Below, piece after piece: positions 29,152-58,204 of a DNA stretch of 64,000 bases. This stretch comes from Hydrangea macrophylla. Taxonomy: Eukaryota > Streptophyta > Magnoliopsida > Cornales > Hydrangeaceae. Below the pieces are notes generated by a model. The model worked only from the letters and a program-made list of their open reading frames with translations. It was not told where the DNA came from and ran no database searches. The stretch covers positions 30,615,637-30,679,636 of the forward strand of contig CM066994.1 of the NCBI GenBank assembly GCA_033977485.1. The letters run 5' to 3'. Each line of letters opens with the position of its first letter. Within the stretch, counting starts at the first letter, position 1. Both the position numbers and the translations under genes were made by a program.

Positions 29152-29776
29152 TGATATGTCCAGAAATATTCTGTAGAAGTCCAACCGCCACGTGGTCAGC
29201 CAACAGCCCGGGTAATCTGGACTGGGGGCGTAGAGCCCACAGTCCCGAGACGACCAGCTGTTGCCGCCCGGGATACTCGGCAGCTCGGGCATGAGGCGTG
29301 GGGAGTACCCATGAGACGCGGCATGGATCACGCTTCCAGCGTTCCCTTATACAGCCATGACTCTATCAAGAAGAATCAATGGTTTCCTAAACCACTTAGG
29401 AAACTCTCCAAACATTGTACAAATCTATTATGATTAGATTTAGGCTTCCTAATCTAATGAACTTACCATGTAAAGGTGGACTCTTGCACCTATAAAAGAG
29501 CCCACCTGCCCTCTCTAAGGGGATCCGAATATCAACTCTCTAAGCATACAAGCACACATTAGAGAACTCACCACTTACACGCATACACCCGGCCGGTATT
29601 ACTGGTAGTGCCGCCCACCATTGTTGGCTCACCAGGCCCGCCGGTGATCTGCTAGTGAAGGCGCATAGACGCAACCGTGGACGTAGGTCACCTCTTTAAC
29701 GGGGCTGAACCACATACAAATCTTCTGTGGCTTTATTTTCTGTCTAAATTACTCTTACCGATTTTTGGCATCATCA
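29152..29776 (+). repeat. T1 5' LTR, 625 bp
   Basis: Runs from TGATATGTCCAG to GGCATCATCA. It contains a hairpin-like GGTTTCCTAAACCACTTAGG and a TATA box at 29491. T2's LTR has the same plan with roughly three quarters of bases matching by eye, so T1 and T2 are sister families. Confidence 0.93.
29491..29500 (+). promoter_or_regulatory. TATA box of the T1 LTR
   Basis: TATAAAAGAG, preceded by GGACTCTTGCACC, sits at the same place in all four T1/T2 LTRs (also about 41158, 42564 and 52967). It marks the U3/R boundary roughly 25-30 bases downstream. Confidence 0.7.
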
Positions 29777-29779
29777 GTT

Positions 29780-29795
29780 TGGCACCGTCTGTGGG
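29780..29795 (+). other. T1 primer binding site
   Basis: TGGCACCGTCTGTGGG begins three bases after the LTR end. T2 has TGGCGTCGTCTGTGGG at the same place (42852-42867). This site is typical of one group of plant Tat elements. I do not assign the tRNA. Confidence 0.7.
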
Positions 29796-29841
29796 AAGCG
29801 ACACAGTTTTCTCATCAACCAAAAATCTTTGACTGATCAAC

Positions 29842-31920: not shown

Positions 31921-34900
31921 TTTCGTGATAGTGGAGGCCCCGTCGGCCTACAACGTCATCCTCGGGAGGCCGACTCTCAACAGGGCCCGAGCTGTCGTCT
32001 CAACTTACAGCTTAACCGTGAAATTCCCAACTCCCCAGGGACCCGGATGCTTGCGAGGGGACCAGACCGCTGCTCGAAGTTGTTATGTTAGCTCGTTGCG
32101 CCGGGGGGCAATCACCAAAACGCTGAACATCCAAGAAATTGACCCACTGGACCAGAAGGACGTAATAGGACCCATGGAGGAATTGGAACAAGTTGTGCTG
32201 GATCCAGAACACCCCGGCCGCACGGTCAACATAGGCGCACTGCTGGAGCCCGCCTTAAAGGAAAAGTTGACCCAGTTCTTGAGGCAAAACCAGGACGTTT
32301 TTGCTTGGAGTCATGAGGACATGCCCGGAATTGATCCCCGGGTAATGTCCCATCATCTCAACGTCAGCCAGGACTGCCGCCCAGTGAAGCAGAAGCGGCG
32401 GGGCATGGCCTCCGAAAGACAAACAGTAGTGAGTGAGGAGGTTGAGAAGCTCCTAAAGGCAAACTCTATCCGGAAGGTTCAGTACCCCGATTGGCTGGCC
32501 AATGTTGTACTGGTCAAAAAGAGCAATGGAAAATGGAGGATGTGTGGGGACTTCACCGACCTCAACAAGGCCTGCCCCAAGGACTGCTACCCATTGCCCA
32601 GGATAGATCTCCTTGTCGACTCAACGGCAGGCCACTCACTCCTCTCGTTCATGGACGCTTACTCGGGGTATAATCAGATCAGCATGTACCCCGGGGACGA
32701 AGAGAAGACGGCGTTCATCACCGACCAAGGCACATACTGTTATAGAGTTATGCCATTCTGCCTCAAGAATGCCGGGGCTACATACCAGCGCCTGGTCAAC
32801 TTCATGTTCAGAGACCTCATCGGAAAGTCCATGGAAGTGTACGTGGACGATCTCCTGGTCAAGAGCCGGGAAAAGACCGACCACCTTGAGCACCTAACTG
32901 GGGCCTTCAGCATTTTGAGAAAGTTCAGGATGAGGTTGAACCCGGCCAAATGCACCTTTGGGGTCTCGTCCGGGAAGTTCCTCGGCCACCTAGTTAGCAG
33001 ACGGGGAATCGAAGCAAACCCCGACAAAATCCAGGCCATCATCAACATGCGGTCACCCAAATCAACAAAGGAAGTTCAAAGCCTAGCCGGACGGGTGGCC
33101 GCACTGAACAGATTCGTGTCCCGAGCTACTGACCGGTGCCTGCCGTTCTTTAAAATCCTCCGCAAAGCTTTTCAATGGTCGGAGGAGTGCGAGGAGGCAT
33201 TCCAGGAACTCAAGAAATACCTTGCCTCTCCTCCTCTATTGTCGACACCTACGGCCGGAGAGGAACTGTTCCTATACTTGGCGGTGTCACCATCGGCGGT
33301 TAGTTCGGAGCTTATTCGGGAAGAGCACGGGATACAGTTCCCAGTGTACTACACCAGCCGGGCGCTGTAAGGTGCGAAAAGCCGATACTCCCGCATCGAG
33401 AAATTGGCCTTCGCCCTCATTACCTCAGCCCGAAGGCTCCGACCGTACTTCCAGGCCCACGCCATTGTCGTACTGACCGATCAGCCTCTCCGCAAAATTC
33501 TATCTCGACCGGACACATCCGGGAGGCTCGTCAAATGGGCTTTGGAACTGGAGGAGTTTGAAGTAACTTACCGGCCGCGGACGGCCATCAAGGGACAAGC
33601 CGTCGCAGATTTTCTGGTCGAGTTTACGTATCCTGAAGACCCGGTCGAAGAGCCCGAGCCTCCGGCCTTACCGCCCGAATTGCAATCCGGCATCTCTACT
33701 TGGGTACTGCATGTTGATGGCTCTTCTAACCAGCAAGGTAGTGGGGCCGGGATCATCTTGACTACCCCCGACGGAATCCAGCTCGAATATGCTTTAAGGT
33801 TCGGGTTTCGTGCCTCCAACAACGAGGCCGAGTATGAAGCCCTTTTGGTCGGATTACAATTAGCCATCTCAATGAGTGCACAACAAGTCGAGAGCTTCAG
33901 CGACTCCCAGCTCGTTGTCAATCAGGTAAACCAAGAATACGAAGCACGTGAAGATAGCATGGTGGCCTACTTAGCCCTCGTCCGAACGGTTTCCAAACAG
34001 CTCCGAGGATTCTCCATCACTCGGATACCTAGAGAAGAGAACACCAGAGCTGACCGGCTGGCTCGCCTCGCCTTGTCGTCTGAGTCAGACTTGCCCGGGA
34101 TAAGGATACAATTCCTACCCGAGCCAAGTGTGATCAACTCAGAGGGTATGGAGGTCGACCCGGTTACTCTGGGACCCAGTTGGATGGATCCAATCGTTAC
34201 ATTATTGACAACAGGAGGGCTGCCAAACGACAAAGAGGAAGCAAGGAGGGTCAGGTACCGGGCGGCGCGATACCACGTTCTAGACGGTGTCCTCTACAAG
34301 AGAGGATTCACCATCCCGTACCTTCGCTGCGTTCATCCTACGCAAGTTCAAGCAATATTGTTTGAAATCCACGAAGGTGTGTGCGGGAACCACGTAGGAG
34401 GCCGGACACTTTCCAGAAAGGCCCTACTGCAAGGTTATTACTGGCCAACCATGGCCCGAGACTCGCAGGAGTACGTTCGAAGATGTGACAAGTGCCAACG
34501 GTACTCTCCCATGATAAACCAACTGGGAGAACTTCAGACCCCGGTCCATAGTCCCTGGCCATTCGCCCAATGGGGGATCGACATCGTTGGTCCCTTACCA
34601 CCAGGGAAAGGGCAGGTTAAGTTTGCTGTAATAGCCGTTGACTACTTCACCAAGTGGGCGGAAGCCGAGCCCCTGGCAACGATAACCGAGCGAAAGATGG
34701 AACATTTTGTGGAGAGAAATATCCTTAGCAGGTTCGGTATTCCACGAGTCCTGATCAGCGACAATGGAAGACAATTCGATACACCTATCTTTAGACAGTT
34801 CTGCTCGGACTATGGGATACTGAATCATTACTCTTCTCCCGAGCATCCGCAAGCTAATGGTCAGGCCGAGGTGACCAACCGCACGATCTTGCAGTCGATT

Positions 34901-35416
34901 AAAACGAGGTTGGAAGGTGCCAAAGGCCTGTGGGCTGATGAACTCCCAGCCCTCCTGTGGGCCTACCGCACCACACCCCGGGCAGCTACGGGCGAAACCC
35001 CATTTTCATTAACTTATGGTTTTGAGGCAGTAGTCCCCACAGAGCTCGGGCTTCCCACATACCGGGTGGCTACCTTCAATAACCCGGACAATGGAGAAGC
35101 CCTCAGGACAGAGCTAGACCTGGTGGAAGAAAAAAGAGACCAGGCCTATCTCAAGGTGGCAGCTTACAAACAAAGGGTCTCGCGGTATTACAATAGCAAG
35201 GTGAAGCATCGTAGCTTTCAAGTCGGGAACCTCGTCCTTAAGGCAGTGAACCAGTCTACCCGAGTCCCAAGCCATGGGAAGTTGGGAGCAAACTAGGAAG
35301 GACCGTATATAGTGACTCGGGTCAACCGACCAGGAACCTACTGGCTACAGAGCATGGACGGGCATGATCTCACCCATCCTTGGAACGTGCAACACCTCCG
35401 CAAGTATTATCAGTAG
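31921..35416 (+). pseudogene. T1 Pol: RT, RNase H, second (archaeal-type) RNase H, integrase
   Basis: Open in one frame apart from TAA at 33368-33370 and TAG at 35294-35296 (Trp in T2). RT: DWLANVVLVKKSNGKWRMC, LLSFMDAYSGYNQI and catalytic YVDD at about 32840. Two changes at conserved sites, GDFTDLNK for the usual VDFTDLNK and PFCLKN for PFGLKN, suggest damage. The gypsy RNase H (PVYYTSRAL...VLTDQPLRKIL) is followed by a second RNase H with HVDGSSNQQGSGAGI and SNNEAEYEALLVGLQ (33700-34060), the extra domain that marks the Tat lineage. Integrase: a zinc finger with His-x-His and CDKCQ, catalytic GID, SDNG and GQAEVTNR. It ends at 35414-35416 after a GPY-type tail. Confidence 0.88.
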
Positions 35417-35554
35417 CATCTGGCTACGGGAATTTAGTATTATAGAAAAAATTCTTTTCATGTAGCCCTGATGGGACAACTGTTACCGATTGTTATCTTT
35501 TAAATGAAATTGAAAAAGTTTGCTTTGAAAACTTATTCCTGTCAGTATATCGTG

Positions 35555-35700
35555 CAAAGCACAAAAAGACCTCGGGCCTAACCCCGAGGCACAAAAAGAC
35601 CTCGGGCCTAACCCCGAGGCACAAAAAGACCTCGGGCCTAACCCAGAGGCAGAGAAGACCTCGGGCTCCGAACCCAGGCACCAAAGGACCCTGCAACCAC
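35555..35700 (+). repeat. T1 hairpin array after pol
   Basis: Tandem 30-base units CACAAAAAGACCTCGGGCCT plus AACCCCGAGG. Each CCTCGGG can pair with the following CCCGAGG to form a small GC hairpin. Four units, the last imperfect. T2 has a longer array at 48590-48800. Frames across it are artefacts. Confidence 0.85.
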
Positions 35701-36273
35701 CCATGTTCCAGGTTGGTTTCCTATGGTCGATCCCCAGCACGCCCCCGCCTTAACAGTAGTCCCGGGGGCAAGAGGGTTCTACACCTAAACAGAAAATTAA
35801 CTAAAGCTTCGCCTAGGTCTAGCCAACGACGGGGCCGAACCCCTAGGTGGCCGACGATGGCAAGCTTAAAACGCACCTGCGACCACCCATGTCCCAGGTC
35901 GGTTCCCTACGGCCACTTACTCCCGTACTCCCATACTCCCGCCTTAGCAAAATGCTTGGGGGGCAGGGGAATAAGGGGAATATAGAAAGGCTAAAACAGG
36001 GAATCACACCATCTGACTAGGTGTTCTGTTGGTTACGGTCCTAAAGCATTTGCTAAGGCAGGTGTTAGGTCGGCCACAACCGTACGGATACTAGCAAATA
36101 CGGAAAGTACAAAAAAGGCACATATACAAAGTTGATGGAAGGTTGACCTCAAGGGTCTTTTTCATTAATTAAATATACAAAGCCCGGGGGGCAATTGTAG
36201 CAGCCTCCCCAAAAAAAAAAAAAAAAAAACTACAAGCAATGAAAGCAAACAATAGGAAGGAGGGACCGGGGAG
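35686..36273. other. T1 spacer between pol and antisense gene A
   Basis: Two partial copies of a module with CCACCCATGTTCCAGG and CGGTTCCCTACGG (35690-35760, 35880-35950), a CCTTAGCAAAATGCTTGGGGGG hairpin (35944), and the conserved 3' end of antisense gene A (36140-36250, read on minus). No coding region is supported. Confidence 0.6.
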
Positions 36274-38405
36274 TCAGTCTCCCACATTGACCACATTCTC
36301 GGTCTGCTCCCTTGGTACGGCAAGTGCTTCGTCCCCCAAGCCCCCGCCTGGGGCAAGTTCTGTGGCCTCAGCAACGACCGCAGGATCTTCACCGACCGCA
36401 GGATCTTCACCGGTCGCAGGACCTTCACCGACAGCAGGAGCTCCACCGGCTACAGGATCCTCACCGACGTCCCAGTAATCCGAGTCAATTCCCTCATAGG
36501 CGGAAAGCGCCCATTCGGGGTGATCACGGGCTACCCGCCGCTTCAGATCGTCATAACCTTGGAAGAAGCCATCGTCAAATGCTCCCTCCAGGGCCGCTGC
36601 GGAAGGTGTCTCGGCCACCGTCTTCGCCCGGGCTTCTGCGGCCGTGGTCAGAGCCCGGGAAACCTCCAATTCTGCCAAAGCCGCTGCCAGGTCCGCCTGA
36701 GCGGCCCCTAAACTCAAGGCCAATGACTTCGTCTTGCTTGTCCCACGGCTAGGGCGGCTCTCGCTACTTGTAGCTCTTTTCGCTCCTTCGAAAGGACGGC
36801 TTCAGTAGTGCGGACCTTCTCGGCCTGAGAGGATAGGACGGACTCGGATCCCGCGGCCATGCAGCCAACCTACGGCAAGAGGATGAAAATCAGTTAGGCA
36901 AGTAGAAAGGGGAGCAGACCAATGTTTAAAAGGGGGACAGAACACTTACCAGGTGGGATATGCTATACAGCCACCCTTGGAAGCCTTGCGGAGATAACCC
37001 GGCGCATGCCTCCACCTGGCTTGGGACAAGGACGGACTTCAACCTTTCCCGGACCTCCTCAGGCCCGCCCAGGGACAGACCTGACGGAATATCAGCCCTG
37101 GGCGCGGGCTCGTCAGCAGCCGGCCTGTGGGGAGCCGATGTCCCCACAGGGTCGTGTCGGGTGGTCGTCCCGTGACGAATACGCCTGAGCGGGCGCTCAC
37201 CGCCCAAGGCCTCGGTAGCTGGTCTCTTTCCTTGAGCGATCGCCGCCCGAGCGGCAGTAGTGGCGGCGGCGGCAGCCTGTCTCTCCCGCAGCTGGTCCAA
37301 GGTGCGCTTGGGGGCCATTTCTGCAAAAACCAAGATCGCACGGTCAGAAGTGCAAGGGGCAAAAATTATACAAGCGCATAATGCAACCAGGATACTCACC
37401 AGGAATGATGGGCATAAAGCTGGGGGCCAGAACAGGCTCCTCAGGGGAATAGGTCGCGATAAAATCCCCCGTACGGGACAACACGTTCCAAACGCTAGTG
37501 GACAGCCCTGCTAGCCTCAAAATCCTGGCCTGGGACGTCTCAGGGATTTTTGGGGGTTTAGCTGAGCCCGCTGTGGACAGAGAAAAGAAATTAGTCAGTA
37601 ATCCACCGTATTCCCGAAATACCAAGATAGCAGACGAAGTTGGAAGGGCGGTCTTACCCCTCAACTCCCTGGCCCAGGATGTCCTCAGCTGGCTTCCCGG
37701 AGCCATGTCGCAGAGGCGAAGGGTAGACACCTGGAAGAATTTGCCCTTCCACCCTTTATTATTGCTAGGGCAATTGTCGATAATTTTCCTGCCCAGACGG
37801 GCAAAAAAGGAGAAAAACCCCAATTCCTGATGCACGGGGAATGGTCGATGGGCCCAGAGAAACTCCTGGAGGGTAAGCTCGTACCCGAACACTTGAGGCC
37901 ACAAGGATATACACCCCATCAGGAACCTCCACCCGTTGGGGGCCAACTGACCGGGAGCGATATCGAGAAAGATCAGCATGTCCCGGGCTAGAGGGTGAAG
38001 CGGAAGTCGGAGGCCCGCCATCATAGCGTCCTCGAACAGGGTGACAAACCCCGACTGATAGAGATGCGCGCCGCCGATGTTTACGGCTAGGGCGCAACCA
38101 TCTGGAAGGGAATATCTCTCCCTGATCCGGAGAAGATCTTCGGAGCGCAAGACAGAAGAAGTGGACTCACAAGTAGAAACTACGCGGTCAGTCCCCTCGG
38201 GCAACTCGTCGCCCGAACCCCTCGAGACGGAGGCAACGGGGGCCTCCTCGAAAGACTCACTGTCAGATAGACGAACGGAAATCCTGGCCCCACTTTGGTG
38301 ATCGGACAGGGACTCAGGAAGCCGGCCCAGACTGGCACCGGGGGACCCTGATCGATATTGTTCACTCTCGGATCTCGACGCAGAGTTGAAGCCGGAGTGT
38401 TCCAT
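36274..38405 (-). CDS. T1 antisense gene A: four-exon 'gypsy-type transposon' domain protein, one frameshift
   Basis: Exons 38405-37658, 37570-37400, 37320-36950 and 36869-36274. Introns are GT-AG with phases 1, 1 and 0: GTAAGA..CCACAG, GTGAGT..TTGCAG and GTAAGT..CCGTAG. The start MEHSGFNSAS aligns with MCHLDFNSSS in T2. Exon 1 carries the domain catalogued as putative gypsy-type transposon (PF04195-like): SGFVTLFEDAMMAGLRLPLH, IAPGQLAPNGWRFLMGCISL and NCPSNNKGWKGKFFQVS. Exon 3 is basic and Ala/Arg-rich. Exon 4 is an Ala/Glu-rich coiled coil with a tail FFQGYDDLKRRVARDHPEW. Exon 4 is 596 bases, one short of frame, so a frameshift lies near 36735. Without it the product is about 630 residues. 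Function is unknown. Confidence 0.72.
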
Positions 38406-38773
38406 CTCTGGCTCTCCGGCGGGAAGGAACGGACACAAACTACAACTTGCGAATGGATCAGAAACCCCAAACCTGATATACAGGGGGAGCAGAGTTACTA
38501 ACCTGAATGGTAACGAGTAGACACTCCTCAGCACCAGATAACACTCTCCCAGAACAACACAAGAAACACCCGCTCGGTTCAGATGAGTTAGAGTTCCACC
38601 CGACTCAAAAAATACATAGAATCTAAGAAGGAAGAAATCCCACTCCCGCTCGAACCTCTCAAGATTCGTTCTCTCCAGCCTCACTTCGAAATGGAAAAGG
38701 AATGGGGGAAGAGGGAAGAAAAGCATAAAATAAAGGATCAAGAAGGGATGCAGGAGGTGGGGCGAGTGCTCCT

Positions 38774-38900
38774 TATATAAAGACCCTGAACGGCCAAGAT
38801 CAGAACAGATCCAGCGGTTCAGAAGAATTCCCGCCCAAACCGTCGCTTCGGTCACGTGGGGAGTCGCCTCAAAAGGCGCGCGCATTAAATGCGCAAAAAG
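38774..38900 (-). promoter_or_regulatory. Antisense promoter of T1 gene A
   Basis: On the minus strand: a G-box CACGTG (38853-38858), the palindromic GCATTAAATGCGC further upstream, and TATATAA at 38780-38774, about 370 bases before the ATG. The same elements in the same order precede gene B and the T2 antisense gene. Confidence 0.6.
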
Positions 38901-39089
38901 ACGGTTCCGTTAGTCTGCAAACGGTTCGGTTACGACCACGTCTCCACTTGTTAGGATCTAACCTGACTGATGATTGGTTGGTACAGGATAGCAGTGGTCC
39001 GGGCCTGAGCAATCACAACCCGGGCGCATTCATAAGCCGGTCGGGTATTAACCTCCCAGCGTCGTACAGAATTTATAAATAGTTTGAAG

Positions 39090-39210
39090 GGCATAGTGAA
39101 GGAAAGAGTTGGCCTCAAGGACCTTTTTATTGCTATAAAGGGTGAACTATATAGAAGCCGGGGGCAATTATAATAGCCTTCTCGGTGAAAAAAAAAAAAA
39201 CTAGGTGCCT
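39090..39210 (-). terminator. Conserved 3' end of gene B
   Basis: Downstream of the stop on minus: poly-T, GAAGGCTATTATAATTGCCC, CCGGCTTCTATATAG, AGCAATAAAAAGG and CCTTGAGGCCAA. Genes A (36250-36140) and T2 (49560-49466) have the matching box with TTAATTAATGAAAA in place of AATAAA. It is probably the polyadenylation region. Confidence 0.5.
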
Positions 39211-40305
39211 TCAAGGTCCTTGGCCCTTCAAAGCCTTGACCTCCTCTTCCAAGGCCGCCACCTTCGCCACCAGCTCCTCTACGGTGAGCTCCAGGGCATG
39301 GAAGTCCACCCCCCGCAGGGCGGAGTCCATCTGCAGTTCGTCGCCCATCTTCTCCACCTCCTGCAAACGCCTCTCCATGTTCACAAGAGAGAAGTCCGAC
39401 CATGAGCCAGGCATGCGAAGATCGGCGGACGCTTCTGGCCGGCCCCTTTTCGGTGGGGGCTGAGATTCTTTCTCAACCTTTTTCTCATTTCCCTTCCTGG
39501 ATGGGCCTGGTGGCGGGCTTGCGTCCTCAGATGAGGAGGAATCACTGCTGGTGGACAAGGTGACCGGTCCCTCGGACAGGTCAGCCCTGCTGGTGGTGCG
39601 CGCCCCGGTCGCCATGGAACGAGTATAGTGGCGCGAACCAGAGGCCGCGGTGGCAGGAGCAGCAGAGGAGGGTCCGGCACCCGCATCATCCGCAGGTCCC
39701 CCGGCCAAATCAGAAAACGACAGACCAGCCTCGATAGCTCGGTCGATCGCCTCTGTGTCCTCAGCGGTAGGGGCAGCGCCACGGGAGGTAGCGAAAGCCT
39801 GCTTGCAGAGGTCGGGATCAAAAATTGCAGGAGGGCAGAGAGCGGCATCCTCCAGCCAGTTGCCGGCAACCACAACCCAAGGATACCGCTGCCAGTTCTT
39901 GTTCGGGAAGTCCAGGCCTTGGACAAGGTCCTTTCCCTCGGTCTTGGGGCGGAAGTAAGGGCCTCCGTTGTCGATGCCCAATATGTAGCACCTCGCGACG
40001 TCGGCGGACCGGAGGAACAACCCCAGTCGCTCGTTCAGCGCCGATATTCCCCATAGGAGGCGGGCGACGTTTGGGCGGCACTTGTGGAGCGGGATGCGCA
40101 ACCCCTCGAGCAGGTCGCAAAAGGAGACCGGGAGGGGGAAGCGTAGTCCCACGATAAGCAGCAGGTAGCTGCTGATGAGGACGAAGGGAAAGGCTATTTC
40201 CTCCCCCTCAGTGAACGGACAGACCACCACATCGTCCGGAATTTGGCAGTCCTCTCGAAATGATCTGAGCCCTTCATCAGACGATAGATCGATATGCGAA
40301 GCCAT
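39211..40305 (-). CDS. T1 antisense gene B: single-exon paralogous protein, 364 residues
   Basis: Intact frame from MASHIDLSSDEGL to TGA at 39213-39211. The first 190 residues resemble the exon-1 domain of gene A in layout: a short helix with IPDDV, FVLISSYLLLIVGLRFPLPV, DLLEGLRIPLHKCRPN, and later NKNWQRYPWVVVAGNW in place of NKGWKGKFF. Then come a Ser/Thr/Pro-rich linker, a basic patch (PPPKRGRPEA) and a C-terminal coiled coil (LQEVEKMGDELQM, LTVEELVAKVAALEEEVKAL). No intron is needed. The ATG lies about 120 bases below its TATA box. It is absent from T2. Function is unknown; I would call it a diverged duplicate of gene A. Confidence 0.7.
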   Translation of the reverse strand: MASHIDLSSDEGLRSFREDCQIPDDVVVCPFTEGEEIAFPFVLISSYLLLIVGLRFPLPVSFCDLLEGLRIPLHKCRPNVARLLWGISALNERLGLFLRSADVARCYILGIDNGGPYFRPKTEGKDLVQGLDFPNKNWQRYPWVVVAGNWLEDAALCPPAIFDPDLCKQAFATSRGAAPTAEDTEAIDRAIEAGLSFSDLAGGPADDAGAGPSSAAPATAASGSRHYTRSMATGARTTSRADLSEGPVTLSTSSDSSSSEDASPPPGPSRKGNEKKVEKESQPPPKRGRPEASADLRMPGSWSDFSLVNMERRLQEVEKMGDELQMDSALRGVDFHALELTVEELVAKVAALEEEVKALKGQGP

Positions 40306-40423
40306 TTGCTGGAAATGAAAGTTTGGGAAGCGAAGACGGCAGAGAAGAGGGAGCTCGGAGTGTTCTGCTCAGGCGACTTAGTTGATGATGTGCAGTGAGA
40401 AACAAGATTGAACATGTGCTCCT

Positions 40424-40560
40424 TATATAGGCAACACGAACGGTTGAGATCCAGCTTGATCGGATGGCTCACATACTCTCCCGCCGAAACTGTCATTTCG
40501 GGCACGTGGGGCGTCGCCTCAGAAAGCGTGAGCATTGAATGCGCGACGTGATGGTTTAGT
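40424..40560 (-). promoter_or_regulatory. Antisense promoter of T1 gene B
   Basis: TATATA at 40429-40424 (CCTATATAAGGAGCACAT on minus), G-box CACGTG at 40503-40508, then GCATTGAATGCGC and ACGTGATGG. The TATA to G-box spacing (about 74 bases) equals that of gene A. Confidence 0.6.
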
Positions 40561-40802
40561 TGCCAGCTGGACGATTCGGTTACTTCTTAAAACTGGCTGC
40601 TTTGAGTCTGAACTATACCAATAACCAGCAGACACGTGGCGTCGGGGATCTCGGGCCTGCAGAGTCACCGCTCGGTCGATATACCGCCGGGTCATTCCAA
40701 GCCGGCCCCGTTCCGACGGGGGTCTCGGTCTTTTCCCGGTCGGTGTCTGAAAGACACTCTTAATTTTCAAATTTCATCTGACAAGGCGTCATCTCAACCT
40801 TG

Positions 40803-41442
40803 AAAATGGGGGGCAGCTGATATGTCCAGAAATATTCTGTAGAAGTCCAACCGCCACATGGTCAGCCAACAGCCCGGGTAATCTGGACTGGGGGCGTAGA
40901 GCCCACAGTCCCGAGACGACCAGCTGTTGCCACCCGGGATACTTGGCAGCTCGGGCATGAGGCGTGGGGAGTACCCATGAGACGCGGCATGGATCACGCT
41001 TCCAGCGTTCGCTTATACAGCCATGACTCTATCAAGAAGAATCAATGGTTTCCTAAACCACTTAGGAAACTCTCCAAACATTGTACAAATCTATTATGAT
41101 TAGATTTAGGCTTCCTAATCTAATGAACTTACCATGCAAAGGTGGACTCTTGCACCTATAAAAGAGCTCACCTGCCCTCTCTAAAGGGATCCGAATATCA
41201 ACTCTCTAAGCATACAAGCACACATTAGAGAACTCACCACTTACACGCATACACCCGGCCGGTATTACTGGTAGTGCCGCCCACCATTGTTGGCTCACCA
41301 GGCCCGCCGGTGATCTGCTAGTGAAGGCGCATAGACGCAACCGTGGACGTAGGTCACCTCTTTAACGGGGCTGAACCACATACAAATCTTCTGTGACTTT
41401 ATTTTCTGTCTAAATTACTCTTATCGATTTTCGGCATCATCA
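40803..41442 (+). repeat. T1 polypurine tract and 3' LTR
   Basis: AAAATGGGGGGCAGC (40803-40817), then a 625 bp LTR (40818-41442) ending GGCATCATCA and followed by the target duplication CTTAT. Confidence 0.93.
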
Positions 41443-42232: not shown

Positions 42233-42848
42233 TGATATGTCCAAAATTATCCAGCCATGAAGCCAGTCTGCCACATCACCAAGAGGTACCGGTTATTTTG
42301 GTAAAGGCGCCAATAGCCGAGCCATCCCGAGGACTTCGTCAGAACCGCGCGGTTCCTGCCAACAGGCCGGGATTGGGGGCCCGCGGCATCCCGTGGACTT
42401 GATCTATAAAGCAGTTTCCTAAATCAGCTACAAGTCTGCAAGATGGAAGGTGGCAGTTTCCTAAACCACTTAGGAAACTTTCCCCAAATTACGTAAATCA
42501 ACTCTAATTAGATTGGGTTTCCTAATCCTGTTAACTTACCATGTAAGGGTGGACTCTTGCATCTATAAAAGAGCCCACCTACCCTGTCAATAGGGATCCC
42601 GGAAAATAATTCTCTAGCTAGCAAGCACACAATAGAGAACTCACCACCAACACGCATATACCCAACCGGTATTACTGGTAGTGCCGCCCATCTTTATTGG
42701 CTCGCCAGGCCCGCCGGTGATCTGCTAGTGAGAGTGCACAGACGCAACCGTGGACGTAGGTCACCTCGTTAACGGGACCGAACCACATACAAATTGTTCC
42801 TGTCTTATTTTCTCTCTAAACCCTTCTTACTAATTTTAGGCAGCATCA
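42233..42848 (+). repeat. T2 5' LTR, 616 bp
   Basis: Runs from TGATATGTCCAA to GGCAGCATCA. TATA box TATAAAA at 42564-42570. Primer binding site TGGCGTCGTCTGTGGG at 42852-42867. Confidence 0.93.
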
Positions 42849-42909
42849 GTTTGGCGTCGTCTGTGGGAAAGACATAGTTTTCTCATCAACAAATTCGTGA
42901 CTGATCAAC

Positions 42910-45900
42910 ATGCCGCCGAAGGCGGGTAAGAAAACTACTGTTTCGACCAGTCAGGAGAACCCGCAGCTTGAGCAACAGGCTGCCTCCATGACCACCGAAT
43001 AGATAATGGCTGCACTGGCGTAACTCTTGGAGGGCCAGCGCCGAACACAGGAGCAAATGGAGGCATTTTTGGCCCGACAAGAGAAACGTCCTGCATTAGA
43101 AAACCAGCCTGAGAAGAGCGCCCCTATTCAAAGGCCCACTAGGGCACGCAGGCAAGCCCGTCCTGCCCCGGTGTCTCCACCGGATCGGGAGCACCCTGAT
43201 GATGGTGAGCGCAGCCAGGCGACCAGGCATTCACAAAGGCGAGCTCGGCCTGATCCTCGCCGGGTAGAGGATGCCAGGACTATCATCAATTGACAGCGTG
43301 CGGCAAGAGGGGAGGAGTCCGGACGGAGAGCCCGGGAATTGACCGAGGACCCTCCAGCCCAGAGCCAGGGGGATCTTAGGCACACGCTTTCCCGAACCTG
43401 GAGTCGGGCCCAATCCCCGAGGTATACGCGTTTTGAGGAAGAGGCCTCATCCGATCCAACTTACCTCTCGGATATAGAGAGGAGAACCGGGCGAGATGAT
43501 GTAAAGGCCCAGGTCGAGGAATTACAGCAGCAAATTGAGAGGTTAAACCGCAAGTCCGGCCATGACCTCACTAACACAGAGACTGAGTCACTCTATACCG
43601 CTCGGGTAACACGGTTTCCTATTCCACGGAAGTTCAAACCCCCTCACCTCAGCTCCTATGATGGCACAGGGAGTCCGGTGGACCACATCCGTACCTACAA
43701 GGCTCAGATGGCACTGGTCACCACGGTGGACGAGCTACTGTGCCTGGCCTTTCCCAGTACCCTCAAGGGGCTAGTCGCACAGTGGTTCCATGCTTTAAAG
43801 TCCCGGAAGGTCGACAACTTCAAAGCCCTCGGCAAGCTGTTCATCAGCCAGTTTGTCAGGATGCTCGACCGGTCGCAACCGGACACTCAGCTGCTGACTG
43901 TCAAGCAGCGCAAAGGGGAGTCCTTGAGGGAGTATGTGGACCGTTTCAACTAGCAAAGGCTCCTGATTCGCAATCTTAATGAAACGGCCGCAATCATGGC
44001 CTTCTGTTCGGGAGTTCAACACACCAAGGTTGCCACGTCGTTCCATTGCGACCGACCGGCAACCCTAGTGGAACTCTCGGAGAGGGTCAAAAAGTACATA
44101 GATACTGAAGAGTTCTTGAAGGCGAAATGCGCTGGCCAGGCAGGAGACGAATCACTGAAAGCCAAGCACAAGCGTGAAGGATTCGAGAAGGGCTCGGAAA
44201 AGAAGCCAAAGCATGATCAGAAGGATGTATGGGGTCCGCCCCCAATCGCTTTCACACCCCTTTCCCGGCCCATACATGAAGTCATGGCCGCCGCCGAGGT
44301 GCAAAGACTGCTCCAGCAGCCGGCAAAGCTCAGAGCCCCACCTGGTAAGAGGAACCGGAACAAATTCTGCCGCTACCACAGGGATCACGGCCATGAAACG
44401 GACGATTGCTTTAAATTAAAGATGGTAATAGAGAAGCTGATCGAGCAAGGACACCTGGCAGAATTTGTCACAGCAGATAGACACCGGCAGGACACCCGCG
44501 CTCCCGATCAGCCACCACCACTTGGCCACATCCACGTGATCTCCGGAGGAACATCAGGCGGAGGAGATTCACAGTCGGCACGGAAGAGGCATGCTCGGGC
44601 ATCCCGGGCGGATGTCTGGCAGGTCCAATCCACCGGCTCCTCCCCAACTGATGTTCTAACATTCACGTCCGACGACTTGCAGGGCGTCCACTGCCCCCAT
44701 GATGACCTGCTAGTTGTGACGCTTTTTATAGCCAACTATATGGTCTAGAGGGTGCTAGTGGACACAGGCAGCTCGTCCGACATTATGTTCACGTCGGCAT
44801 TCGATCAGCTTGGGATCTCCAGGGATCGGCTCCGGCCGATCGCCACTCCCCTGGTTGGATTCAATGGCTCCAGCACACAACTGCTCGGGACAATCGAGCT
44901 TCCAATTCTCATGGGGACTTACCCTTAGCAAGCTTCCGTGCTGACTAATTTTGTGATCGTAGAAGCCCCGTCGGCCTACAATGTCATCCTTGGCAGGCCA
45001 ACCCTCAACAAGGCCAGGGCGGTCGTCTTCACCTACAGCTTAACAGTGAAGTTCCCAACTCCTCAGGGACCCGGATGCTTGCGTAGAGATCAGAATACCG
45101 CCCAGAGTTGTTATGTTAGCTCGTTGCACCGGGGGGCAATCACAGAAACATTGAACATCCAAGAGATGGATCCCTGGGACCAGAGCGACACGATAGGTCC
45201 GATGAAAGAATTGGAACAAGTGATGCTGGATCCCGAGTACCCGAACTGCACGGTCAGCATTGGTACCCTACTGGAGCCTGGTCTGAAGGAAAAACTGACT
45301 CAGTTCCTGATACAAAATCAGGACATTTTTGCTTAGAGTCATGAGGATATGCCCGGGATTGATCCCCGGGTAATGTCCCATCGTCTCAATGTCAGCCCAG
45401 ACTGCCGCCCGGTCAAGCAGAAGAGAAGGGGCATGGCCCCCGAGAGACAGAAAGCAGTGAGTGAGGAGGTCGAGAAGCTCCTAAAGGCGAAGTCCATCCG
45501 AGAGGTCCACTATCCCGACTGGTTAGCTAATGTTGTTCTTGTCAAAAAAAGTAATGGGAAGTGGAGAATGTGCGTGGACTTCACCGACCTCAACAAGGCC
45601 TGCCCCAAGGATTGCTATCCGCTACTCAGGATAGACCTCCTTGTGGACTCCATGGCAGGCCACTCACTCCTCTCATTTATGGATGCCTACTCGGGGTACA
45701 ACCAGATCAGCATATACCCCAGGGACGAAGAGAAGACAGCATTCATCACTGACCAAGGCATGTATTGCTACAAGGTTATGCCCTTCGGTCTCAAGAATAC
45801 CGGGGCTACCTACCAGCGCCTGGTCAACCACATGTTCAAAGACCTCATTGGAAAGTCTATGGAGGTATATGTGGATGATCTACTAGTCAAGAGCCAGGAC

Positions 45901-48446
45901 AAGCCCGACCACCTCGAGCATCTGGCCGAGGTCTTCAGCATTTTGAGAAAATTTAGGATGAGGTTGAACCCGGCCAATTCCACCTTCAGCGTCTCGTCCG
46001 GGAAATTTATGGGCCACCTAGTCAGCAGACGAGGGATTGAGGCGAACCCCGAGAAGATCAAAGCCATCATCAACATACGGTCGCCCAATTCAACGAAGGA
46101 AGTTCAGAGCTTAGCCGGACGGGTGGCCTCACTGAATAGATTCGCCTCCCGAGCTACCGACCGGTGCCTGCCATTCTTCAAAATCCTCCGCAAAGCGTTC
46201 CAATGGTCAGAAGAGTGTGAAGAGACATTCCAAGAACTCAAGAAGTACCTGGCGTCCCCTCATCTCCTCTCAACACCCGTGCCAGGGGAAGAACTACTTT
46301 TATACTTGGCGGTGTCACCATCGACGGTTAGCTCGGCACTTATTCGGGAAAAGCACGGGATACAGTTCCCAGTGTACTACACCAGTCGGGCGTTACAGGG
46401 CGCAGAGAGCAGATACTCCCGCACCGAAAAATTGGCGTTCGCCCTTATCACCTCGACCCGAAGGCTCCGTCCTTACTTTCAGGCCCATGCCATTGTAGTC
46501 CTCACAGATCAACCTCTCCGCAGAATCCTCAGCCATCCAGACACGTCCGGGAGGCTCGTCAAGTGGGCATTGGAATTGGAAGAATTTGAAGTGATCTACT
46601 GACCCCGGACAGCCATCAAGGGATAAGCCGTAGCAGACTTTTTGGTCAAGTTTACGTATCCTGAAGACCCGATTGAAGAGTCTGAGCCCCCGGCCTTACT
46701 GCCAGGGTAACACTCAAACATCCCAACCTCGGTACTGCATGTGGACGGTTCCTCCAATCAGCAAGGCAGTAGGGCAGGAATCATCCTGACTACCCCCGAC
46801 GGTATCCAGCTCGAATATGCGTTAAGGTTTTGGTTCCGTTCCTCCAACAATGAGGCCGAATACGAAGCCCTCTTGGTCGGGTTACAGTTGGCCATCTCTA
46901 TGAGTGCACAACAGGTCCAAGGATACAGCGACTCCCAGCTCGTGGTCAACTAGGTTAACCAAGAGTACGAAGCATGGAAAGACAACATGGTAGCCTACTT
47001 GGCCCTTGTCCGAGCGGTTTCCAAGAAGCTCTGAGGATTCTCCATCACTCAAATACCCAGAGAAGAAAATACCAAGGCCGACCGGTTGGCTCGCCTCGCC
47101 TCGCCTCATCTTCTGAGTCACACCTGCCCGGGATAAGGATACAATACCTACCCAAGCCAAGTGTGATCAACTCAGAGGGCATGAAGGTAGACCCGGTCAC
47201 CCTGGAACCCAGCTAGATGGACCTGCTCGTGACATTCTTGACGATAGGGGGGCTACCAGACGACAAAGAAGAAGCCCGCTGGGTTAAATACCGGGCGGCA
47301 CGATATCATCTTTCTAACGGCATCCTCTACAAGAGGGGATTCACTATCCATACCTCCGCTGTGTCCACCCTGCACAGGTCCCAGCATTACTGTTCGAAAT
47401 CCAAGAAGGAGTATGCAGGAACCACGTCGGAAGCCGGGCACTCTCCAGAAAGGCCCTATTACAAGGATATTACTGGCCAACCATGGCCCGAGATTCGCAA
47501 GAGTACGTCCGAAGGTGTGACAAGTGCCAAAGATACTCTCCCATGATCAACCGACCGGGAGAACTCCAGACACCAATCCACAGCCCATGGCTGTTCGCCC
47601 AGTGGGGTATCGACATTCTCGGTCCCCTGCCAATGGGAAAAGGACAGGTCAAGTTCGCCGTGATAACCGTTGACTACTTCACCAAATAGGCAGAGGCCAA
47701 GCCCTTGGCGACAATAACCGAACGAAAAATAGAAGGCTTTGTGGAAAGGAATATTCTCAGTAGGCTCGGCATTCCCCAGGTCCTGGTCAGCGATAATGGC
47801 AGACAATTTGACACACCCATCTTCAGGCAGTTCTGCTCGGGCTACGGGATACTAAATCATTACTCCTCCCCCGAGCACCCACAAGCCAACGGTCAAGCCG
47901 AGGTAACCAACAGGACAATCTTGCAATCAATCAAAACAAGGCTTGAAGGCGCCAAGGGATGTGGACTGAAGAGCTACCAACCCTCCTATGGGCCTATCGC
48001 ACTACACCCCGAGCGGCAACAGGCGAGATGCCGTTCTCTTTAACTTACGGATTTGAGGCAGTGGTCCCCACAGAGCTCGGGTTGCCAACATACCGGGTGG
48101 CCAACTTCAGTGCGCCGGATAACGAAGAAGCTCTCAGGTTCGAACTGGACTTGGTAGAGGAAAAAAGAAACCGGGCCTACCTAAAGGTGGCGGCCTACAT
48201 GCAACGGGTTTCTCGATACTACAATAGCAAGGTGAAGCACCGCAGTTTTCTAGTCGGAGACCTCGTCCTCAAGGCAGTGAACCAGTCTACCTGAATCCCA
48301 AGCCATGAGAAATTGGGGCCAAGCTGGGAAGGCCCATACAAAGTAACCCGGGTCAACCGACTGGGAACTTACTGGTTACAGAGCATGGACGTGCACGATC
48401 TCTCTCATCCTTGGAATGTGCAACACTCCGCAAGTATTATCAGTAG
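42910..48446 (+). pseudogene. T2 gag-pol, multiply interrupted
   Basis: Same domain order as T1. Gag: PPHLSSYDGTGSPVDHIRTY, and the CRYHRDHGHETDDCFKLK knuckle at about 44370. Protease VDTGSS is intact. RT has YVDD at about 45867. The two RNases H (second: HVDGSSNQQGS at 46741) and integrase (SDNG, GQAEVTNR at about 47800-47910) follow. In-frame stops begin at 43000, 43021, 43291, 43951, 44746, 44926, 45334, 46600, 46624, 46708, 46951, 47032, about 47214, about 47687 and 48292. Frameshifts, judged against T1, are a 5-base gain near 47100, and one-base losses near 47350, 47960 and 48426. Eleven of the stops differ from the T1 codon by a single C-to-T or G-to-A change. Confidence 0.88.
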
Positions 48447-48589
48447 CAGTTGCCCACAGGAATTTAGTATTGGTAGAGAAATTTGTTTTTGTAGCTCTGA
48501 TTGAGCAACCGTTATAAATTTTTATTTTTAAATAAATAGTTTACTTTGAAAATTTACTCCTGTCAGTACCCCGTGCAATGCAAAAAAAA

Positions 48590-48800
48590 AAAGACCTTGG
48601 CTAAACACCAAGGCAGAAAATACCTTGGGCCTAACCCCAAGGCACAAAAGACCTCGGGCCTAACCCCGAGGCACCAAAGACCTTGGGCCCAACCCCAAGG
48701 CACAAAGACCTCGGGCTCCGAACCCTGAGGCACCAAAAAGACCTCGGGCTCCGAACCCAGGCACCAAAAAGACCTCAGGCTCCAAACCCAAGCACAAAAG
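48590..48800 (+). repeat. T2 hairpin array after pol
   Basis: About eight units of AAAGACCTCGGGCCTAACCC plus CGAGGCAC, some decayed to CCTTGGG/CCCAAGG with both halves changed together. Longer than the T1 array. Confidence 0.85.
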
Positions 48801-49583
48801 GACCCTACAGCCACCCATGTTCCAGGTCGATTTCCTATGGTCGCTCCTCACCACGCCCCCGCCTTCACAGGACGCTCGGGGGAAAGGGGATACTAGACCT
48901 AAACAGGAAATTACACAAAGCTTTGCTTAGGTCCAACCGATGATGGGGCCATACCCCTAGGTGGCCGACGATGGCGAGCTTCAAAGGACCCTGCAATCAC
49001 CCATGTTCCAGGTCGGTTTCCTACGGCCACTCACTCCCGCACTCCCGCCTTAGCAAAATGCTTGGGGGACAGGGGAATATTAGGCCAAAACAGGAAATCA
49101 CACCGGTCGCTACAAGAACTTGAAAGATATTCCTAAGTGCTTACAGTGATCAGAGATATATCCCGGACGGTAAAACATGATACACCTATGATACACCGGA
49201 ACATCCCGGATGGTGATACAGGGTATTCCTATAATACACCGGGCGATCCCGGATGCTAAACAGGACCAGTTTCTACAGCACTGCTAAATAAGACCAGTTC
49301 CTACAGCACTCCGGGCAATTACCTTTTAAACAGGTCAGAAAGACTAGGTGTTTTATTGGTTATGGTCCAAAAACATTTGCTAAGACAGGTGTTAGGTCGG
49401 CCAAGAACCGAGCGGATACTAGCAATTAAAATAGGCAGTGCAGAAACATAGTTAATAGAAAGTTTGACCTCGAGGGCCTTTTCATTAATTAAAAAAGAGA
49501 ACTGTACAAAGCCTGGGGGGCAGTTGTAGTAGCCTTCCCAAAAAGAAAAAAAAACTACAACAAAAATAAAAGGAAAAAAAAAA
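48801..49583. other. T2 spacer between pol and antisense gene
   Basis: Repeats the T1 modules CCACCCATGTTCCAGG and CCTTAGCAAAATGCTTGGGGG. It also has a local repeat of ACACCGGNNNATCCCGGATG (49170-49260) and CAGTTCCTACAGCACT (49265-49310). The conserved antisense 3' box is at 49466-49560. No gene on the plus strand. Confidence 0.6.
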
Positions 49584-51793
49584 CTAGTCCACCATCACTA
49601 CTTCTTCCTCCCCCGCAGCCTGCTCGTCAACGGAGGGGTCCCTAGCTGGTACAGCTTCAACGACGACCTCGGCTTCAGCGGCGACCTCGGAGTCAGCCTG
49701 GCCTTCCTTCCAATAACTGGACTCAGCCCAGGAGTACCCGGACAGATCCCAGTCAGGGTGGTCAGCAGCAGCCCGCTTCGCTAAGTCAGCGTAGCCCGTG
49801 AAGAACCTTGCCTCGAACTCCTCCTCGGCCTCCTTGGCTTCAGCCTCCCGAGAAGCAGTAAGCTCCGAGAACGTGGCCATCATGGCTTCCAGGTCCCTCT
49901 CGGCAGAGATCTTCCCGGACTCCGAGGCTGCAACCTTGGCCTCAGCAATCTTCTCGGCGGTGACCCTCCCGGCCTCCGCAGCAGCCGCCTTAGCCTCCGC
50001 AGCCTTCTGGGCAGCCTGCTCGGTTGACAAGGAATCATGGACCTCCCCTAGCTCCAGGGCTGTCGCCTGGGATCTTTCTTCCTCCACGGTGAGGGCAAAC
50101 TCCGTGGAATCCCAAGCAGCCCTTTCCATGAAAAGGTTGGCCTCAGCAGTGGCCAACCTCTCAGCAATGCCGGGAAGGGTGGTCTCGGCCCCGGCCGCAA
50201 TACAACCAATCTGCAAGAACAAAAAAATATTAGTATGCGCATGGAGGAAAAATTAATGTTCACATTACATAGAGACTTACCATGTGGCTGATGCTGTACA
50301 ACCAACCGATGATGGCCTCGGGGCTCAGTAGGCTGCACTTGTCAATCAGGCTCTGCAGCAGCCCGGGACGTACCCTTTCGCGGACTTCATCCGCTGTCTC
50401 GACCTCCAGCCTAGAGGAGGGGCCCGCGCGAGCAGTCTCCTCCATGCTCGGGAAGGAGACCCCGGACGGTTTGGCTACTGGGAGAAGTGGTGGAGGCGCA
50501 GCAGTGGTTATGCCAGGAGGAGGTGGTGGTGCAGCAATTGTAACCACGGGCATAGAAGTAGCAGCAGCTTCCTTCTCAGCCCGGATGGATATCCCCCAGG
50601 AAATCCTTTTCAGGGGCTGGCCCACCGTGGGATCTGACTTCTTCCTCTTTTGGCCAGCCCAGGCCATCAGCGCCGCGTCCTTCTCCTTCAACGTTGTCGC
50701 ATTCTTGGGAGCCATTTCTGCAAAATCGGAGAGTATGTCAGTTCAGTAAAATCCCAAGCGAAAAGAAAACCGGGCGGTCAAGAAATTGTACTTACCCAGA
50801 ATGATCGCCGGGAGGATGGGAGCTGTGAAGTTCTGGGGCTTGTAAGAGATCTTCGGGATTCCCGACCGAGTCAGTACCTTGTTAATATCAGTTGGGTCCT
50901 CCACTAGAGACAAGACCCGTGCTTGGAGCTCGTCGGGAAGACTCGGCGGGTCCACTGCTCCCACTACGAAGTAAATGCACCAACGGGTTAGTCAAGGCAA
51001 AGTAAAGAAACTAAGCAAGAAAGAAAGGGTGCTTGGGCATACTCCTCAACTTCCCTGCCCAGGAGGTCTCCAGCTAAATACCCGGCGCCCTCTCACACAG
51101 ACCCAGGGTGGACACTTGGAAGAATTTCTTCTTCCATCCCTTATTGTTGCTCGGGCAGTTAATAATTATCTTTCGCCCCTGCCTGGCCCCGAGCGAGAAG
51201 AAACCGGCCTCCCCGTGAACCTGGAAAGGCCGGTGGGTCCAGAAGAACTCCTGCAATGTGAGCTCATACCCGAGGACTTGGGGCCACAAGGAGATGCACC
51301 CCATCAGGTATCGCCAACCGTTCGGAGCAAGTTGCCCGGGGGAGATCCCGAGGTAAATGAGCGCATCCTGGGCAACTGGGTGGATAGGCAGGCAAAGGCC
51401 CGCCATGAAAGCATCCTCGTACAAGGTGACGAAGCCCGACTCGTGGAAGTGAGCTCCGCCATCGTGCACGGCAAGAGAAAAGGGACCAAAAAGTTCATAC
51501 CTATCCCTAATCCGGTCCAAATTAGGGCCACGTAGAATACTGACGATGGACTCGCATGAGAAGACGACCCCGGGGCTGTTCGGTACAGACCCCTCATCGC
51601 CTGACCCCCGAGACATTGAGGCTATGGGAGAATCCCAGCACGTTTTCTCGTGAAATGCCTGAGCAGGTATTATTCCCTCACTATGCTGGTCAGAGGGGGC
51701 TAGAGAAGGAGGGTCTGGGCTTGAGCTCATGGACCCTGACCGCACTTGCTCGTCTTCCAACCGGGATGACGAGTTAAAATCTAAATGGCACAT
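49584..51793 (-). CDS. T2 antisense gene: four-exon 'gypsy-type transposon' domain protein, one stop
   Basis: Exons 51793-51043 (751), 50963-50796 (168), 50717-50281 (437) and 50210-49584 (627), totalling 1983 bases or about 660 residues. Introns GTATGC..TCGTAG, GTAAGT..TTGCAG and GTAAGT..TTGCAG have phases 1, 1 and 0, as in T1. The only defect is TAG at 51076-51074 in exon 1, where T1 has CAG. Exon 1: SGFVTLYEDAFMAGLCLPIH, ISPGQLAPNGWRYLMGCISL and NCPSNNKGWKKKFFQVS. Exon 3: basic QKRKKSD then a Pro-rich stretch and GWLYSISHM. Exon 4: a long Ala/Glu coiled coil (QKAAEAKAAAAEAGRVTAE) and FFTGYADLAKRAAADHPDW. Retained frame through four exons in an element whose gag-pol has 15 stops is notable. 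Confidence 0.75.
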
Positions 51794-52234
51794 GACTAAG
51801 TTTGTGGAAGACCGAGGGGGCAGACGACCTAAGAATGGGTCAAGAACTCCTAACCTGATGTACAGAGGAGGTAGATCTAACAACCTAAACGGCAGGTCGT
51901 ACAAGACTCTAGAAGAACGATAACTCTCTCTCAAGACTGTCCCGGGAAAACCCGTTCGGTCAAACTGCTCTAGCGTACCCCCGGATTGAAAGAAATGACA
52001 AAACCTAAAAAAGAAGAAATCCCACGCTCGTTCTAGCCTAAGTGGGTTTGCACCCTCCAGCTTTGTTCAGATAAGAAGAAAAGAATGAAGAACTGAAGAC
52101 AAAAAGGAAGGACTTACAAGGTTTAGCGTAGAAAAGAGGTCGGGAATCATGCTCGGGAATCTTGAATGCTCTCAAACCGCTCGGTAAACTCTCTCACTTG
52201 GTAGTAGGAACTGAAAAAATGGGCAACTGTTCCT

Positions 52235-52370
52235 TATATAGGAATAGCGGACGGTCTAGATCAATCAGATCCAACGGATCAGGAATTTTCCCGCCAAGAG
52301 TCGCCAACAACTGTCACCTCGGGCACGTGAAGGGTCACCTCAAAAGATGTACGCATTAAATGCGTGACGT
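52235..52370 (-). promoter_or_regulatory. Antisense promoter of the T2 gene
   Basis: TATATA at 52240-52235 (CCTATATAAGGAACAG on minus), G-box CACGTG at 52324-52329, GCATTAAATGCGT and ACGTGATGG beyond. This matches the two T1 antisense promoters in order and approximate spacing. Confidence 0.6.
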
Positions 52371-52623
52371 GATGGTCCGGTTATCACGCGACTATTCGAT
52401 TACATCCAAACTGACTCCGCTGAGCCCTGACCAGGCAAATTACTCCCTGACACATGGCAATGCCCATACCCAAGCTCCTACCTGCACCAGTCGGTTACTC
52501 TACCTGGTGACCTGGAATGTGGGCCCCATCCCGAGCAGCGTTCCCAGAGGACATCTGGACGGTTTCCAAGGAATACTGATTTTTAAATTCTCACTCGATG
52601 AAGCATCCAGTCAGTTCCGAAAA

Positions 52624-53251
52624 ATGGGGGGCAGCTGATATGTCCAAAATTATCTAGCCATGAAGCCGGTCTGCCATGTCACCAAGAGGTACCGATTATT
52701 TCGGTAAAGGTGCCATTAGCCGAGCCATCCCGAGGACTTCGTCAGAACCGCGCGGTTCTTGCCAACAGACCAGGATCGTGGGCCCGCGGTATCCCGTGGA
52801 CTTGATCTATCAAGCAATTTCCTAAATCAGCTACAAGTCTGCAAGATGGAAGGTGGCAGTTTCCTAAATCGCTTAGGAAACTTTCCCCAAATTACGTAAA
52901 TCAACTCTAATTAGATTGGGTTTCCTAATCCTGTTAACTTACCATGTAAGGGTGGACTCTTGCATCTATAAAAGAGCCCACCTACCTTGTCAATAAGGAT
53001 CCCGAAAAATAATTCTCTAGCTAGCAAGCACACAACAGAGAACTCACCACCAACACGCATATACCCGGCCGGTACTACTGGTAGTGCCGCCCATCTTTGT
53101 TGGCTCACCAGGCTCGCTGGTGATCTGCTAGTGAGAGTGCACAGACACAACCGTGGACGTAGGTCACCTCGTTAACGGGATTGAACCACATACAAATTGT
53201 TCCTATCTTATTTTCTCTCTAAACCCTTCTTACCAATTTTAGGCAGCATCA
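52624..53251 (+). repeat. T2 polypurine tract and 3' LTR
   Basis: AATGGGGGGCAGC (52623-52635), then the 616 bp LTR (52636-53251), followed by the target duplication GGAAC. Confidence 0.93.
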
Positions 53252-58170: not shown

Positions 58171-58204
58171 TTTATCTAATGCGCGCTCGCGCACACAACC
58201 ATTA

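Follow-up and report, generated by a model that had tools for sequence, protein, structure and literature searches.

Organization of the locus

The window analyzed here, a 64,000-nucleotide stretch of the Hydrangea macrophylla genome, contains two neighboring LTR retrotransposons, T1 and T2, in the same orientation:

29152..41442, plus strand: T1, complete Retand-type gypsy element; LTR pair 98.4% identical; TSD CTTAT on both sides
33404..35296, plus strand: T1 pol by Pfam, with the end of RNase H, then RVT_3 (read as aRH) and integrase
42233..53251, plus strand: T2, complete Retand-type gypsy element; LTR pair 94.5% identical; TSD GGAAC on both sides

Self-comparison of the window placed the LTRs at 29152-29776 and 40818-41442 in T1 and at 42232-42849 and 52635-53252 in T2, and the 5-bp target duplications of both elements are perfect once the LTRs are trimmed to TG...CA. 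By Pfam, the plus strand of T1 encodes gag, RT, RNase H, a second RNase H-like domain, and integrase; in the ORF at 33404-35296 the order is an RT_RNaseH piece, RVT_3 (overlapping an RNase_H match), H2C2, and rve. We take RVT_3 to be the archaeal-type RNase H (aRH). In T2, Pfam recognized RT and RNase H over part of the plus strand, and the remainder was matched to T1 by BLASTP, the two elements being 88% identical over 349 residues of RT-RNase H and 80% identical over 662 residues of gag.

An extra RNase H between RNase H and integrase is the position rule for the Retand lineage, one common to Ogre (PMC6317226), and Pfam places such a domain there in T1. Both elements carry an antisense Transposase_28 (TRP28, PF04195) ORF between pol and the 3' LTR, above the Pfam cutoff in each. 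The distance from the end of the T1 integrase ORF (35296) to the 3' LTR (40818) is about 5.5 kb, within the 2,933 to 6,566 bp given for Retand, and tandem repeats of 29 to 30 bp, a feature of about half of Retand elements, occur at 35559-35690 in T1 and 48589-48800 in T2. Judged by this layout, T1 and T2 are of the Retand type (Tat, Ty3/gypsy) (PMC6317226, PMC11963269).

Elsewhere in the window, Plant_tran (PF04827) and DDE_Tnp_4 matches at 18792-20069 (plus strand) mark a transposase spread across two adjoining ORFs, and a copia-type gag (PF14223) lies at 7907-8545 (plus strand). Self-comparison also revealed a dense tangle of diverged direct repeats at 58200-61900, running across ORFs of both strands, and local tandem-type repeats at 2430-2950, 3079-4134, and 5579-6041. 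Scans of the window with Rfam (gathering scores) and for tRNAs returned nothing.

An antisense gene with three predicted introns

The antisense TRP28 gene of the two elements, here called gene A, occupies the minus strand between pol and the 3' LTR and is predicted to consist of four exons:

51043..51793, minus strand: T2 exon 1 (TRP28 domain); PF04195 E=1.1e-7 on ORF 51074-51934; in-frame TAG at 51076-51074
50964..51042, minus strand: T2 intron 1, 79 nt, GTATGC...CGTAG, phase 1; CTAAC at 24 nt
50796..50963, minus strand: T2 exon 2, from frame and codon-position pattern
50718..50795, minus strand: T2 intron 2, 78 nt, GTAAGT...TGCAG, phase 1; CTGAC at 20 nt
50281..50717, minus strand: T2 exon 3, with a basic KRKK...PLKRI stretch
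50211..50280, minus strand: T2 intron 3, 70 nt, GTAAGT...TGCAG, phase 0; CTAAT at 19 nt
49584..50210, minus strand: T2 exon 4, alanine/glutamate-rich, coiled-coil-like by eye
37658..38405, minus strand: T1 exon 1 (TRP28 domain); PF04195 E=1.6e-7 on ORF 37344-38885
37571..37657, minus strand: T1 intron 1, 87 nt, GTAAGA...CACAG, phase 1, open in frame
37400..37570, minus strand: T1 exon 2
37321..37399, minus strand: T1 intron 2, 79 nt, GTGAGT...TGCAG, phase 1
36950..37320, minus strand: T1 exon 3
36870..36949, minus strand: T1 intron 3, 80 nt, GTAAGT...CGTAG, phase 0
36274..36869, minus strand: T1 exon 4, frameshifted; the entering frame stops at 36716

The original prediction had proposed GT-AG introns of phases 1, 1, and 0 at equivalent residues of both elements. 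The exon coordinates yield exactly these introns, and the junctions coincide when T1 and T2 are aligned as DNA.

On six-frame translation, the predicted frame of exons 1 to 3 is stop-free in T1 and T2 save one stop in T2 exon 1, and each of the five other frames contains stops in T1, T2, or both; the test fails for exon 4 in T1, where the predicted frame has six stops, because of the T1 frameshift. The frame that reaches the normal stop of T1 is open back to 36801. It had been proposed that removal of the introns joins four ORFs into one protein of about 630 to 660 residues. The spliced frame of exons 1 to 3 agrees with this, but neither copy reads through, T2 being interrupted by its TAG and T1 by its frameshift, and on these sequences the predicted whole protein could be made by neither copy today. 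Read unspliced, T1 would stop in intron 2 and T2 at the exon 1 TAG, with a further stop in intron 1, in both cases ahead of the basic stretch of exon 3.

Substitutions between T1 and T2 at codon positions 1, 2, and 3 numbered 70, 54, and 147 in exon 1; 27, 18, and 37 in exon 2; 48, 44, and 73 in exon 3; and 21, 15, and 24 and 49, 51, and 79 in the two pieces of exon 4, as counted on a protein-guided alignment, which itself favors an excess at the third position. On a DNA-level alignment the third position is still the most changed in all four exons, with a weaker contrast. The dN between T1 and T2 is 0.28 in exon 1 and 0.55 to 0.72 in the other pieces; dS exceeds 4 in three pieces, has a value of 1.17 for the first of the two exon 4 pieces, and is not computable for exon 1, so that dN is below dS where dS can be computed, yet the ratio is no measured number. 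T1 and T2 differ in length by 3, 3, and 66 nt in exons 1 to 3 and by 8, 1, and 10 nt in the introns.

The original prediction had further held that the intron sequences differ while the exon reading is retained. Nucleotide identity between T1 and T2 supports this for exon 1 (63%, against 49 to 54% in the introns), but exons 2 to 4 (46 to 48%) are no more alike than the introns, and "retained" is too strong because both copies are broken. Plain nucleotide identity was rejected as a test of exon against intron for exons 2 to 4, where it fails to separate the two. For these exons the case for a coding role is carried by reading frame, codon position, and indel length.

The same data bear on the possibility that the antisense transcript acts as an RNA, by pairing with the genomic RNA or through small-RNA silencing, and that the frames are remnants of an older gene. 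Such a role would fit the broken state of both copies, and antisense-RNA roles have been proposed for units of this kind (PMC7264820); against it stand the codon-position pattern, dN values of 0.55 to 0.72 that lie below dS wherever dS is computable, and the conservation of the TRP28 domain among relatives (see below). We regard it as unlikely.

Splice signals

The six predicted introns are 70 to 87 nt long, with a T content of 36 to 44%, against 16 to 25% in the exons. CTRAY is a plant branch-point consensus. It lies 19 to 24 nt before the 3' end of all six introns, where shuffles scored over a wider interval (15 to 55 nt) gave an expectation of 0.88 in six, for a motif that was chosen after the intron sequences had been inspected. 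In their GT-AG ends, branch-like CTRAY, and T-richness, all six have the sequence characters of U2-type introns.

Donor-like sites of T1 and T2, aligned over approximately 2.85 kb, formed four pairs, three of which are the predicted donors; under shifted nulls the mean was 0.5 pairs, and 0.2% of shifts reached four. On the minus strand, the T1 gene A stretch has two GTAAG sites, both of them predicted donors (introns 1 and 3), and the T2 stretch has three, of which two are the predicted donors (introns 2 and 3) and the third lies in the leader. For acceptors, an initial test recovered that of intron 3 alone among five aligned pairs, its pyrimidine threshold having missed one side of introns 1 and 2, and a search for branch-plus-acceptor modules took its place. 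The T1 gene A stretch contained six modules, distributed over four acceptors of which three were predicted (shuffle mean, 1.6), and the five in the T2 stretch (shuffle mean, 2.0) marked the three predicted acceptors and two other antisense places. The sense strand had two modules in the stretch of T1 gene A and three each in those of T1 gene B and T2; these, and the one T1 and two T2 antisense places outside the prediction, weigh against the spliced reading.

Relatives of gene A

A search with the T1 protein returned three relatives, and a second one with an alignment returned 11, including those three. P0001 to P0003 are 47 to 62% identical, P0004 is 60% identical to T1 exon 1, and P0011 is 37% identical; the TRP28 domain is conserved among them. 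Ten of the 11 come from contigs of 2.2 kb or less and have the appearance of unspliced ORF calls. The exon 1 boundary is crossed by four (P0001 to P0004), of which three have the protein letters G-K there and one G-M, as expected if the donor DNA were GGTAAR or GGTATG. Beyond it their ORFs extend a further 30, 0, 5, and 36 residues, which have little in common apart from a short match of a few residues (ARV) between P0003 and P0004. The P0004 tail resembles a T-rich sequence with a TGCAG-like codon pair at its end, and it may represent intron 1. P0005 loses likeness ahead of the boundary, P0006 to P0010 end or lose frame before it, and in the distant P0011, from a contig of 58.5 Mb, RDY takes the place of G-K or G-M.

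Intron 1 is thus backed beyond T1 and T2, because four relatives are donor-compatible at the boundary, and introns 2 and 3 rest on the two elements, because exon 3 of T1 and T2 as a protein query found no relatives. Scans of viral contigs and genome contigs and a tblastn search of plasmids, collections of microbes and their viruses and plasmids from which little was expected, found no DNA relative. The structure model of T1 exon 1 (TRP28) was poor (mean pLDDT, 45.9), so the function of gene A is drawn from the literature; the search for a matching solved structure found none.

Could the four pieces instead be separate antisense ORFs, with the TRP28 protein of exon 1 ending just inside "intron 1" and exon 3 being translated independently from a MAPK start? 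Exon 3 does begin with AAATGG, reads MAPK in both copies, and by itself stays open over 130 and 151 codons; intron 1 of T1 is open in frame; and a published survey treats antisense ORFs singly (PMC11963269). However, a donor, a branch-like, and an acceptor signal are present in every one of the six gaps, exon 2 keeps its frame without a start codon common to both copies, the frames hold though intron lengths shift by 8, 1, and 10 nt, and past the boundary the ORFs of the four relatives continue with little likeness, as described above. We consider separate ORFs quite improbable. The frames, splice signals, branch-like sites, and T-richness point to the originally proposed antisense accessory gene of a Tat-lineage (Retand) element, with three conserved introns of spliceosomal type, the relatives adding support for intron 1.

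Flanking cassettes and a second antisense gene

T1 has a second antisense ORF, gene B, between gene A and the 3' LTR, and similar cassettes flank the three antisense genes:

52228..52424, minus strand: T2 antisense promoter-like cassette; CACGTG at 52329, TATATAAGG at 52240; 68% identical to the T1 gene B cassette over 201 columns (E=3e-15)
38766..38933, minus strand: T1 gene A promoter-like cassette; CACGTG at 38858, TATATAAGG at 38779; 76% identical to the T1 gene B cassette over 106 columns (E=6e-17)
40417..40606, minus strand: T1 gene B promoter-like cassette; CACGTG at 40508, TATATAAGG at 40429
39211..40305, minus strand: T1 antisense gene B, one exon, 364 aa, possibly divergent TRP28-like
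39092..39203, minus strand: 3'-end cassette of T1 gene B (T-run, AATAAAAAGG); 74% identical to T2 over 115 columns (E=3e-13)
36040..36252, minus strand: 3'-end cassette of T1 gene A (T-run, AATGAAAAAG); 75% identical to T2 over 227 columns (E=1e-38)
49367..49579, minus strand: 3'-end cassette of T2 gene A, by similarity to the T1 cassettes

CACGTG lies 79 to 89 nt ahead of TATATAAGG upstream of all three genes, and the T1 gene A and gene B promoter-like cassettes share a further 14 identical columns at the TATA. The 3'-end cassettes are T-rich, with AATAAA or AATGAA.

From TATA to ATG there are 124 nt in gene B and 374 and 447 nt in the A genes, and on this longer span we would guess that a further leader intron is possible there. 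The T2 candidate for it has GTAAGT at 52117 and CAG at 51855, a place without a CTRAY module. The frame upstream of the antisense ATG (52018-51794 in T2 and 38630-38406 in T1, minus strand) is open in T1, T2, and four relatives, and its substitutions by codon position (28, 16, and 40) are codon-like; T2 is without an ATG in that frame. The frame holds a conserved block, SExYL..LPFRL..LPPLYxRLGVxDPF, which also resembles pyrimidine-rich acceptor sequence, and the upstream open stretch may be a coding extension or a leader intron.

Gene B matches PF04195 below the cutoff (E=0.049) and gene A weakly (hhalign E, 0.0016; probability, 16%; 136 columns). The only promoter-like cassette of T2 adjoins the 3' LTR, at the location of the T1 gene B cassette, so T2 may have lost gene B, or T1 may have gained it. 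In T2 there is no room for gene B beside the 3' LTR.

Gene B also bears on how the introns arose, under a history compatible with a spliced gene A: they may have been gained inside the element after an intronless gene was captured, gene B being the older state. Gene B has a single exon, yet its cassettes are similar to those of gene A, and its unit contains no branch-plus-acceptor modules against 1.3 in shuffles. Its likeness to gene A is weak, however, and therefore loss of introns in gene B, or unrelated origins, are equally possible; we hold intron gain to be a minority possibility.

Model and implications

The spliced antisense gene is the explanation we favor with good confidence: gene A would be an accessory gene spliced by the host, and its introns would persist, reversed, in the sense genomic RNA. 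An internal antisense promoter on the 3' LTR side would start an mRNA opposite to gag-pol, from which the host spliceosome would take out three short introns. The spliced mRNA would join the TRP28 domain of exon 1, the NLS-like basic stretch of exon 3 (KR...PL[KR]RI in T1 and T2), and the coiled-coil-like tail of exon 4. Packaging and reverse transcription use the sense RNA, in which the introns would stand as reverse complements unseen by the spliceosome; because the genomic RNA is sense, they would survive retrotransposition. That antisense orientation explains intron survival, as had been suggested, follows from the way in which retroelements are copied. Gene layout, frames, splice signals, T1-T2 positions, and cassettes were read from the DNA; the model presumes transcription and splicing, a nuclear and regulatory product, and unbroken family members.

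The basic stretch of exon 3 is a candidate NLS. By analogy with Grande gene23, whose product is reported to be nuclear (PMC7264820), the gene A protein is probably located in the nucleus, and it probably regulates the element in the way that antisense proteins act in HTLV (PMC8622228). More tentatively, a TRP28 gene may have entered an ancestral Retand element as a reversed, intron-bearing gene of cellular type and may since have been kept as a spliced antisense regulator, its introns acting as a strand lock. If this doubtful history is true, the full TRP28-NLS-coiled-coil protein could come only from the antisense mRNA of an integrated copy. The introns would point to a cellular-type origin of the TRP28 gene, and they make strand-specific predictions for plant RNA-seq. 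If antisense TRP28 ORFs are exons, surveys by ORF length mis-split the protein and miss its NLS-like and coiled-coil parts.

Comparison with known systems

Antisense TRP28 ORFs are a recognized Retand feature, in keeping with the earlier statement that extra antisense ORFs are known in the Tat lineage; among recently active Retand elements, 97% of clusters are reported to carry them, and neither their origin nor their function is considered settled (PMC11963269). The ORFs of that survey (Vicient 2025) are like gene A in position, orientation, Pfam domain, and tandem repeats after pol, but they are treated one by one, whereas the four ORFs described here look like exons of one gene. The word "intron" does not occur in the main text of the survey or of a 2020 review (PMC7264820), which urges a search for antisense and spliced transcripts. 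A direct-RNA study of sunflower includes Retand among the elements that are expressed and describes spliced isoforms for two elements; the word "antisense" is absent from its text (PMC7730604). Among the papers listed by searches of the full-text literature, none was recognized as describing introns in the antisense gene, as the original prediction had supposed, a provisional result. Genes of this class are already known, but within that literature an antisense retrotransposon gene with several conserved introns appears to be unreported.

Among individual systems, gene23 of maize Grande is antisense, lies between pol and the 3' LTR, and is reported to have its own promoter and a nuclear product; gene A shares the antisense location and a promoter-like cassette of its own, and the nuclear protein is Grande's (PMC7264820). 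Spliced antisense transcripts have been reported from HTLV-2, -3, and -4 and their simian counterparts, with antisense proteins that regulate viral transcription, and HBZ and APH-2 are likewise antisense genes of retroelements, likened to gene A by organization as an analogy (PMC8622228). The HTLV antisense promoter, however, lies within the 3' LTR (PMC7264820), whereas the cassettes of T1 and T2 are internal and the three predicted introns lie inside the coding region. Plant LTR elements are generally without introns, the exceptions in a 2025 review being Ogre and EVADE (PMC12786077); the Ogre gag-pol intron and EVADE splicing are functional but concern the sense RNA, in contrast to the antisense introns here (PMC12786077, PMC6317226). 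In Penelope-like elements, an unrelated class whose intron-bearing genes are host passenger genes, introns survive retrotransposition, and an antisense template has been proposed as compatible with that survival (PMC3846280).
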